Shown: one piece after another, positions 31,920-33,529 of the stretch
Layout of the letters: every line of letters starts with the position of its first letter
Numbering within the stretch: position 1 is the first letter of the stretch
NCBI GenBank assembly: GCA_900155405.1
Contig: LT700188.1
Location: 1,116,001 to 1,180,000 of the forward strand
Direction of reading: 5' to 3'
Length of the DNA: 64,000 nucleotides
Source of the DNA: Negativicoccus massiliensis
GTDB taxonomy: Bacteria > Bacillota > Negativicutes > Veillonellales > Negativicoccaceae
Notes under the pieces: model-generated
The model's database searches: none
What the model saw: only the letters and a program-made list of their open reading frames with translations
What the model was told of the DNA's origin: nothing
Program-made: the position numbers and the translations under genes

Positions 31920-32142
31920 CAAAAGGCAATGACCGGGATCAAATTTTTCGACAAAGAACTTTTCAGAGAGCAGACGTTCGGTGCGAGTCTGCAAGTCAGT
32001 CGGAAAAGAATACATCACCCGCGAGTCGCAACGTGAACCGAGTAGCGATTGCCGTCGCCGGCGTTAACGGACCGAGAGATAAACCAGGGTGGTACCGCGC
32101 CACTGCGCCCCTGCAGGATATTTTCCTGCGGGGGATTTTTTA
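31920..32142 (+). promoter_or_regulatory. T-box riboswitch 4 (gene-proximal)
   Basis: Fourth copy. Stem I is nearly identical (specifier ATC 32014-32016), but the middle domain after CACCCGCGAG is quite different from copies 1-3. T-box motif 32086-32099. The terminator (about 32106-32142) has a CCTGCAGGA/TCCTGCGGG stem and a T-run. It is the last control before the aminotransferase-like gene and probably the ancestral copy. Confidence 0.92.
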
Positions 32143-32191
32143 TCCTCGAAGTAACGCCAAAACGGTTTTTAATAGAGAAAGGATGATATTC

Positions 32192-33529
32192 ATGAAACGC
32201 TCCCAGGAATTAATTCAAGAAGAAAGCCATTATTTTGCGCCGGCAGGTCGGATTCCGTATTATCCGCTGGTCATTGATCATGCGCACGGTTCGACGCTGA
32301 CCGATGTCGACGGTAACGAATACCTCGACTTGTTGACGAGCGCCAGTGCCTTGAATGTGGGGCACACACCGGAGCCGATCGTGAATGCCATTATCGCCCA
32401 GGTCAAGAAAATGATTCATTATACTCCGGCCTACATGTACCATGAGCCTTTGGTGCATCTCGCGAAAAAAATGTGCGAGATCACGCCGGGAGATTTTGAA
32501 AAACGCGTTATCTTCGGCTTGACCGGTTCGGACGCCAACGATGCTCTGATCAAGTTCGCCCGCGGGTACACGGGTCGTCCGTACATTATTTCCTTCGTGA
32601 ACGCGTACCACGGCTCGACGTACGGTTCGATTTCCATGTCGGCGATCAGTCAAAACATGCGCCGCAAAATCGGTCCGTTGTTGCCGGGCTTCTACCATAT
32701 TCCGTTCCCGGACAGTTACCGCGGCATGTACGGGAGCGCGGAACCGAATACGGTAGAAGAATACCTCGCGCCGCTGAAAGAAATGTTAGCGACCTACGTG
32801 CCGCCGGAAGAAGTGGCGGCGGTGGTTATCGAAACATTGCAAGGCGACGGCGGCTTGTTGCAGCCGGTCGACGGTTACTTTGAAGCCTTGCAGCAGTTGT
32901 GCAAAGAGCATGGCATTCTCTTTTGCGTTGACGACACGCAGCAGGGACTCGGACGCACCGGCACATGGTGTTCGCTGGAACACTGGAAATTGGATCCCGA
33001 CCTTGTCGTTTACGGTAAATCGCTTGCGGCGGGACTGCCGCTCTCGGCCTTGGTCGGACGCAAAGAGATTATGGAAAGTCTGGATCGTCCCGCGCATTTA
33101 TTCACGACCGGAGCAAATCCGGTATGCTGCGCAGCGGCGCTTGCGACTTTGCAATACATCGAAGACAATGATTTGCTTGCGGAAAGCACGCGCAAAGGCA
33201 GGATCGCGCGCGAGCGGATGGAAGATTGGCGGGAACGTTTCGACTGCGTCGGTGACGTTCGCGGTTTAGGCCTTTCGCTCGGCGTTGATATCGTCGCCGA
33301 TAAAAAAGAGAAAACAAAAGATCCTCACGCCGCGCTCGTTATCTGCAACAGGGCTTATGAAAAAGGCGTCGTGATGATCGCTTTCACCGGCAGCGTTTTG
33401 CGTTTCCAACCGCCGCTGACGATCACGGATGAAGAACTCACCAAAGCATTGGATGTTATCGAAGAAACCTTAACGGAATGGCAGGATGGCCGGCTCGCCG
33501 ATTATAAAGTCGACGGGCAAGGCTGGTAA
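32192..33529 (+). CDS. Class III PLP-dependent aminotransferase or amino acid epimerase
   Basis: The start is the ATG at 32192 behind GAAAGGATG; the longer frame upstream runs through the T-boxes and is not coding. The 445-residue fold-type I enzyme has VIDHAHGSTLTDVDGNEYLD, FGLTGSDANDALIKFARGYT, NAYHGSTYGS and VDDTQQGLGRTGTW. The PLP lysine lies in DLVVYGKSLAAGLPLSALVG. Class III members include GABA and ornithine aminotransferases and the isoleucine 2-epimerase of lactobacilli. The isoleucine-type T-boxes upstream and the transporter downstream favour an enzyme of isoleucine supply, but this is inference. Confidence 0.88.
   Translation: MKRSQELIQEESHYFAPAGRIPYYPLVIDHAHGSTLTDVDGNEYLDLLTSASALNVGHTPEPIVNAIIAQVKKMIHYTPAYMYHEPLVHLAKKMCEITPGDFEKRVIFGLTGSDANDALIKFARGYTGRPYIISFVNAYHGSTYGSISMSAISQNMRRKIGPLLPGFYHIPFPDSYRGMYGSAEPNTVEEYLAPLKEMLATYVPPEEVAAVVIETLQGDGGLLQPVDGYFEALQQLCKEHGILFCVDDTQQGLGRTGTWCSLEHWKLDPDLVVYGKSLAAGLPLSALVGRKEIMESLDRPAHLFTTGANPVCCAAALATLQYIEDNDLLAESTRKGRIARERMEDWRERFDCVGDVRGLGLSLGVDIVADKKEKTKDPHAALVICNRAYEKGVVMIAFTGSVLRFQPPLTITDEELTKALDVIEETLTEWQDGRLADYKVDGQGW

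Follow-up and report, generated by a model that had tools for sequence, protein, structure and literature searches.

Four tandem isoleucine T-boxes precede a predicted isoleucine 2-epimerase-type enzyme gene and a putative transporter gene in Negativicoccus massiliensis

We analyzed a stretch of 64,000 nucleotides (hereafter the window; G000:C1:1116001-1180000) from the 1.36 Mb, single-contig genome of Negativicoccus massiliensis. The window carries four tandem T-box leaders (31218-32115, spacing 234 nucleotides) upstream of a gene for a class III pyridoxal phosphate (PLP) enzyme (32192-33529) and a transporter gene (33541-34644). The leaders have an isoleucine specifier, and the enzyme groups by sequence with isoleucine 2-epimerase (ILEP, EC 5.1.1.21), away from the aminotransferases. 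We consider it probable that this is a scavenging operon induced by isoleucine starvation, through which D-allo-isoleucine, together with other D-branched-chain amino acids, would be imported and converted to L-isoleucine. A D-allo-isoleucine scavenging pathway had been proposed in an original prediction made from the DNA letters, and our analysis supports it as a prediction from sequence. Neither of the two refuting conditions set with it, a tyrosine specifier and grouping of the enzyme with aminotransferases, was borne out. The region then singled out, 32010-33529, covers the fourth specifier and the enzyme gene; the array itself starts at 31178 with its promoter. The features are as follows.

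31178..31206, plus strand: promoter TTGACA-17 nt-TAGAAT, second hexamer preceded by TG (consensus scan, 11/12 matches)
31218..31434, plus strand: T-box unit 1, AUC at 31312-31314, terminator 31406-31434 (RF00230 31218-31414, 106.5 bits, E 1.6e-22; terminator scan)
31452..31668, plus strand: T-box unit 2, AUC at 31546-31548, terminator 31640-31668 (RF00230 31452-31648, 98.4 bits; terminator scan)
31686..31902, plus strand: T-box unit 3, AUC at 31780-31782, terminator 31874-31902 (RF00230 31686-31882, 110.4 bits; terminator scan)
31920..32134, plus strand: T-box unit 4, AUC at 32014-32016, variant stem II, terminator 32108-32134 (RF00230 31920-32115, 87.7 bits, E 5.8e-18; alignment, pair counts; terminator scan)
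32192..33529, plus strand: class III PLP enzyme, predicted ILEP-type amino-acid racemase/epimerase, 445 amino acids (NF006368, 741 bits; PDB matches; tree; residues)
33541..34644, plus strand: putative YkvI-type membrane transporter, 367 amino acids, modeled APC/LeuT fold (11 bases 3' of the enzyme gene; conserved neighbor; AlphaFold and Foldseek)
34658..34681, plus strand: terminator-like hairpin 3' of the transporter gene (weak scan match, stem of 5 pairs)

Four T-box units in series

Units 1-3 score above the RF00230 gathering score of 93 and unit 4 (87.7; G000:C1:1147920-1148115) below it. Chance is ruled out as the source of the matches. The elements of a transcriptional-class T-box (RF00230) are present, namely stem I, the stem II S-turn (GAA/AGUA), the IIA/B CGUUA motif, the UGGN bulge, which reads UGGUACC, and a competing terminator, of which the scan found one per unit. 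The window's T-box units lack the AGUA half of the loop-E motif in stem I. Units 1-3 share 96-97% identity with one another and 85-87% with unit 4, the latter differences lying mostly in stem II. Unit 4 has the same T-box elements as units 1-3, and its stem II is mostly still paired through changes on both strands. These pairings were taken from an RNAalifold consensus, which misses the canonical T-box fold in some stems (the specifier is paired with the antiterminator region) and was used for the stem II and terminator pairs only. The consensus scan gave no strong promoter candidate ahead of the array other than 31178-31206, and a near-identical promoter sequence precedes the array of the sister genome G001.

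The specifier is AUC

The original prediction had described four units with an ATC specifier, a conserved A and a CCCG helix, which the Rfam matches and the sequence confirmed. On the 3' side of the specifier loop, all four units read UAC-AUC-A-CCCG, and the 5' side supplies CGGG to pair with CCCG. The register was read from leader sequences of the same genome, with brackets marking the 3' strand of the 4-bp helix below the specifier loop: ileS AUC-A-[CUCG], thrS ACC-G-[CCUU], glyQ GGC-G-[CUUU], serC UCC-G-[CUCC], pheS UUC-A-[UUCG] and, ahead of an ECF-type transporter (Trp), UGG-G-[CCCG]. The valS and cysE leaders match it less exactly. The AUC-A-[CCCG] of the window units is in this register, and UAC lies three bases further out. 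The same specifier rule is applied by TBDB, which scans a window of 1-5 nucleotides (PMC7778990); the specifier bulge ends two to four nucleotides 3' of AUC, and the tRNA cognate to AUC is present in the genome. A stronger test than the register is comparative: AUC-A is invariant in 10 of 10 leaders from four genomes of the family, and UAC is missing from G002 and replaced by GAG in G003. On these sequences the specifier is AUC (Ile), as the earlier reading had it.

A response to tRNA-Tyr through UAC as the specifier is hardly credible, and a Tyr specifier was rejected: each of the eight leaders in the genus does have a UAC overlapping AUC on its 5' side, but UAC is out of register with the genome's own leaders, falls outside the 1-5 nucleotide TBDB window (PMC7778990) and is gone from two orthologous leaders. 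The TGGT bulge had also been cited in favor of tRNA-Ile. It does fit A73 of the tRNA-Ile(GAU) in the genome, but it gives no choice between Ile and Tyr, because tRNA-Tyr(GUA) likewise carries A73.

The enzyme groups with isoleucine 2-epimerase

The usable start of the enzyme gene is the ATG at 32192; the GTG at 31856 given by the open-reading-frame finder falls inside the leader. The Pfam scan gave PF00202 (339.9 bits) as the only family, and PF01063, the class IV fold, was not among its matches. The gene is thus of class III, as had been claimed, and a class IV branched-chain aminotransferase was rejected. Among solved structures, Lactobacillus isoleucine 2-epimerase comes nearest (three entries, 5wya, 4ysn and 5ll2; 496 bits), followed by an archaeal broad-specificity racemase (368 bits), an alanine/serine racemase (328) and gamma-aminobutyrate (GABA) aminotransferases (242). 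Identity is 50% to L. buchneri ILEP, 32% to E. coli GabT and 29% to E. coli ArgD. The NF006368 model (cutoff 570) gives 741 bits for the window enzyme, 761 for L. otakiensis ILEP and 857 for a staphylococcal member; homologs of 40-42% identity in other Negativicutes stay below the cutoff (445-485).

A phylogeny against isoleucine 2-epimerase and GABA aminotransferases had been called for. In a maximum-likelihood tree of 42 sequences, the window enzyme forms one clade (100/99) with the family members and those of Staphylococcus, Tetragenococcus and Aerococcus. This clade is sister (100/100) to lactobacillal ILEP plus Eggerthellaceae and is not inside the clade of the characterized enzymes. The archaeal racemases also branch outside it, and the positions of GabT and ArgD are far outside. 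The two acid-base residues of ILEP are Lys280 and Asp222, with Asp doing the reprotonation (PMC6053490); their equivalents in the window enzyme are Lys276 and Asp219. GabT and ArgD (QGEGG) have Glu at the position of Asp219. From the tree position, the 32% and 29% identities and this Asp for Glu, a GABA or acetylornithine aminotransferase was rejected. Because every characterized tree neighbor short of GabT and ArgD is a racemase, racemase activity is the parsimonious prediction from sequence.

Within the same enzyme clade, the match in Staphylococcus lugdunensis (L101 4001-5334) has 10 stops in one frame, and the gene looks frameshifted in the record.

A putative transporter that changes place with a permease

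The transporter matched no Pfam or NCBIfam family; the name YkvI-type was taken from the original prediction and is based on resemblance. An AlphaFold2 model built with 15 homologs (pLDDT 85, pTM 0.84) predicts an APC/LeuT fold, with Foldseek PDB matches to SLC7A10 with L-alanine, AdiC, AgcS, ApcT and MhsT with L-leucine, most at TM ~0.6-0.7.

By sequence search, a homolog of the transporter adjoins the enzyme gene in 18 of 80 loci, with 55-58% identity in staphylococci, 26-28% in Tetragenococcus and Aerococcus and 36-39% in Eggerthellaceae. More distant look-alikes stand beside the enzyme in Candidatus Petromonas, Schnuerera, G033 and G014. Ten staphylococci have an enzyme of the same clade with, instead, a permease 69-71% identical to the neighbor of L. 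otakiensis ILEP; it is adjacent to the enzyme gene in nine and ~2.9 kb away in L034. Among the 80 loci, those with a YkvI-type partner (18) and those with the permease (38) show an overlap of 0. At the Negativicutes loci L022 and L023, the search for a neighboring homolog of the permease (AAP) gave none. The permease beside L. fermentum ILEP is a non-stereospecific importer of branched-chain amino acids (BCAAs) (PMC11907396). Because the YkvI-type protein and a permease of this kind replace each other beside the enzyme, the swap suggests the same substrates for the YkvI-type protein, by guilt by association and not as proof.

A proposed scavenging operon and its alternatives

Pathway genes were searched family by family in the genome. 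Ketol-acid reductoisomerase (KARI) is absent from the window genome and from three other genomes of the family (4/4); it is present in 75 of 100 relatives, and control genomes were positive in 14 of 14 cases. L. fermentum is likewise reported to lack KARI (PMC11907396). Among the assignable leaders of the genome, an Ile specifier was found only on ileS and on the present operon, which makes the operon likely the cell's isoleucine-starvation-induced acquisition system.

In the mechanism we propose, transcription would start at ~31210 and run through four independent Ile-specific T-boxes in series. Charged tRNA-Ile would lead to termination at each unit, and uncharged tRNA-Ile(GAU) would be needed at each to form the antiterminator, so that read-through would have to be decided four times in a row and is expected to be tight and steep. 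Double units have been interpreted as giving tight serial control (PMC12452182), and we extrapolate from them to four. D-branched-chain amino acids would then enter through the transporter, which probably takes both enantiomers, and D-allo-isoleucine would be epimerized by the enzyme to L-isoleucine in a host predicted to be unable to make BCAAs. The D-to-L direction is favored because an enzyme that consumes L-isoleucine should not be induced when that amino acid is missing. L. fermentum ILEP, when expressed in L. lactis, suffices for growth on D-BCAAs (PMC11907396).

Several points weigh against this proposal. Besides this operon, the genome encodes BrnQ, which is an ordinary importer of L-BCAAs (no T-box was found on brnQ), and the proposal presumes that D-allo-isoleucine occurs in the habitat. 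We know of no assay for any member of the window enzyme's clade. The label "isoleucine" derives from the T-box and not from the enzyme, since ILEP also racemizes valine and leucine. Homologs from O. oeni and L. plantarum that are >70% identical to ILEP gave no racemase activity in cell extracts (PMC6053490).

An alternative that we regard as rather unlikely is that a D-amino-acid transaminase aminates (3S)-3-methyl-2-oxopentanoate to D-allo-isoleucine, which the epimerase turns into L-isoleucine, the pair replacing a branched-chain aminotransferase. The oxoacid would then suffice (for example from reductive carboxylation of 2-methylbutyrate), and no external D-amino acid would be needed. The stereochemistry fits, being established chemistry. 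The sole class IV aminotransferase of the genome is indeed a D-amino-acid transaminase (G000:C1:480503-481174; TIGR01121 290.7 bits, cutoff 277.45), and each of the three sister genomes has a single class IV gene with the same best match over the matched part of the sequence that was scanned. However, such a transaminase usually supplies D-Glu or D-Ala, and class I/II aminotransferases, with eight matches in the genome, could act as the branched-chain enzyme. A Kor-type 2-oxoacid:acceptor oxidoreductase is encoded, which speaks for this route on the presumption that its substrate range takes in the compounds concerned. The co-transcribed transporter would also go unexplained.

It is quite unlikely, in our view, that we are dealing with a true aminotransferase, such as a branched-chain enzyme of class III, that makes L-isoleucine from the oxoacid with no racemase involved. 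The window enzyme does have the fold of class III aminotransferases, it is annotated as "aspartate aminotransferase family", and no class IV branched-chain aminotransferase was found in the genome (the best equivalog, ilvE_I, scored 137.7 against a cutoff of 245). Against this stand the tree neighbors of known activity (ILEP, broad-specificity racemase and alanine/serine racemase), all of which are racemases, the Asp in place of the aminotransferase Glu, and the finding that recombinant L. buchneri ILEP has no GABA-aminotransferase activity (PMC6053490).

Very improbable is the opposite direction, in which the operon makes D-allo-isoleucine from the L-form, for example for cell-wall remodeling or as a store unusable by competitors, as proposed for lactobacilli. 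D-BCAAs do build up in the medium of ILEP-bearing lactobacilli (PMC6053490), and a storage role has been proposed (PMC11907396). An Ile T-box, however, induces under a shortage of L-Ile-tRNA, just when L-isoleucine should not be spent, and would fit only the recovery phase of a store.

Comparison with known systems

The scavenging operon proposed here most resembles the ILEP-AAP operon of lactic acid bacteria, in which ILEP is paired with a BCAA importer of the APC family. The enzyme belongs to a sister clade (50% identity, with the same Lys and Asp), a transporter gene adjoins it, and the host lacks KARI, as reported for L. fermentum (PMC11907396). In contrast, the partner in the window is YkvI-type and not an APC CAT-type permease, that is, of another family in the same fold superfamily; the host belongs to the Negativicutes; and the operon stands under four Ile T-boxes, with no T-box found beside lactobacillal or staphylococcal members.

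Like the tandem T-boxes of trp, ilv-leu and thrS leaders in Bacillota, the array consists of complete sensor and terminator units in series with one specifier. It differs in having four units and in a target outside the biosynthetic, synthetase and ABC genes. A 2025 survey of contiguous riboswitches lists two units, exceptionally three (PMC12452182). The ileS leader of the same genome (L010) shares the AUC-A-[CUCG/CCCG] register but is a single unit on a tRNA synthetase gene. The Leu T-box leaders of G033 and G024, from another family of the order, also lie near a class III racemase-like gene, with a YkvI-type neighbor in G033; theirs have CUC and two antiterminator modules per stem I, and the enzyme clade is more distant.

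In the open-access literature we found no report of a T-box-controlled racemase and, by keyword, none of four tandem Ile T-boxes; the ILEP-AAP paper does not mention a T-box or riboswitch. New here are the Ile T-box control of an ILEP-type enzyme, the YkvI-type partner and the four tandem copies, which make a longer T-box array than any that we found reported in that literature. In this lineage, a leader that senses uncharged tRNA-Ile would be evolutionary evidence that the D-amino acid is eaten, and the exchange with a permease of the BCAA-importing kind gives a substrate prediction for the uncharacterized YkvI transporter family. The four-unit array offers a natural test of how serial T-boxes sharpen the response. 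The D-amino-acid route, if true, would be an unrecognized way to obtain an essential amino acid.

Evolution of the array and related leaders

The sister genome G001 again has four units, with the variant stem II in units 3 and 4 and not in unit 4 only. Unit 4 is 97.7% identical between the species and thus closer across species than to its own neighbors in the window genome. From this and the differing positions of the variant stem II, the array was probably reshuffled by recombination. G002 and G003 have one unit each, so the four-unit expansion appears genus-specific.

The unit variants occupy different array positions in the two sister genomes, as compared between the window (31218-32134) and L118 (3794-4714).

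The history of the enzyme fits horizontal gain followed by T-box recruitment, since the tree places it near staphylococcal and enterococcal homologs and the closest match among the sampled genomes outside the family is 42% identical. No matching T-box core was found directly upstream of the staphylococcal, Tetragenococcus, Aerococcus, Slackia or lactobacillal members, and the 14 loci scanned from these groups gave no gathering-level Rfam T-box match; T-box cores lie 2-2.3 kb upstream of the enzyme in L025 and L058. In G033, a Leu T-box (CUC), independent of the window array, stands ahead of a 40%-identical class III enzyme. In G024, the gene directly behind a Leu T-box is LivJ-like, and an enzyme of this kind lies two genes downstream of it.

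Some further observations were made on these leaders. In L017 (G002), the Ile T-box and the enzyme gene stand ~500 bases apart, and this interval holds a hydrophobic open frame of ~70 amino acids that starts MGSMNMNQKVNF. Before an ABC substrate-binding gene of the window genome (L001 1501-1767; G000:C1:519231-519497, minus strand), two complete antiterminator-terminator modules (AGGGTGGTACCGCG in both) come after one stem I/specifier domain. The same layout occurs in two Leu T-box leaders of another family, L020 (G033) and L153 (G024). Finally, a raiA RNA (RF03072, 183 bits) lies beside the Cys T-box leader of the cysE/cysS region (L004 1760-1955, minus strand, G000:C1 near 541800).
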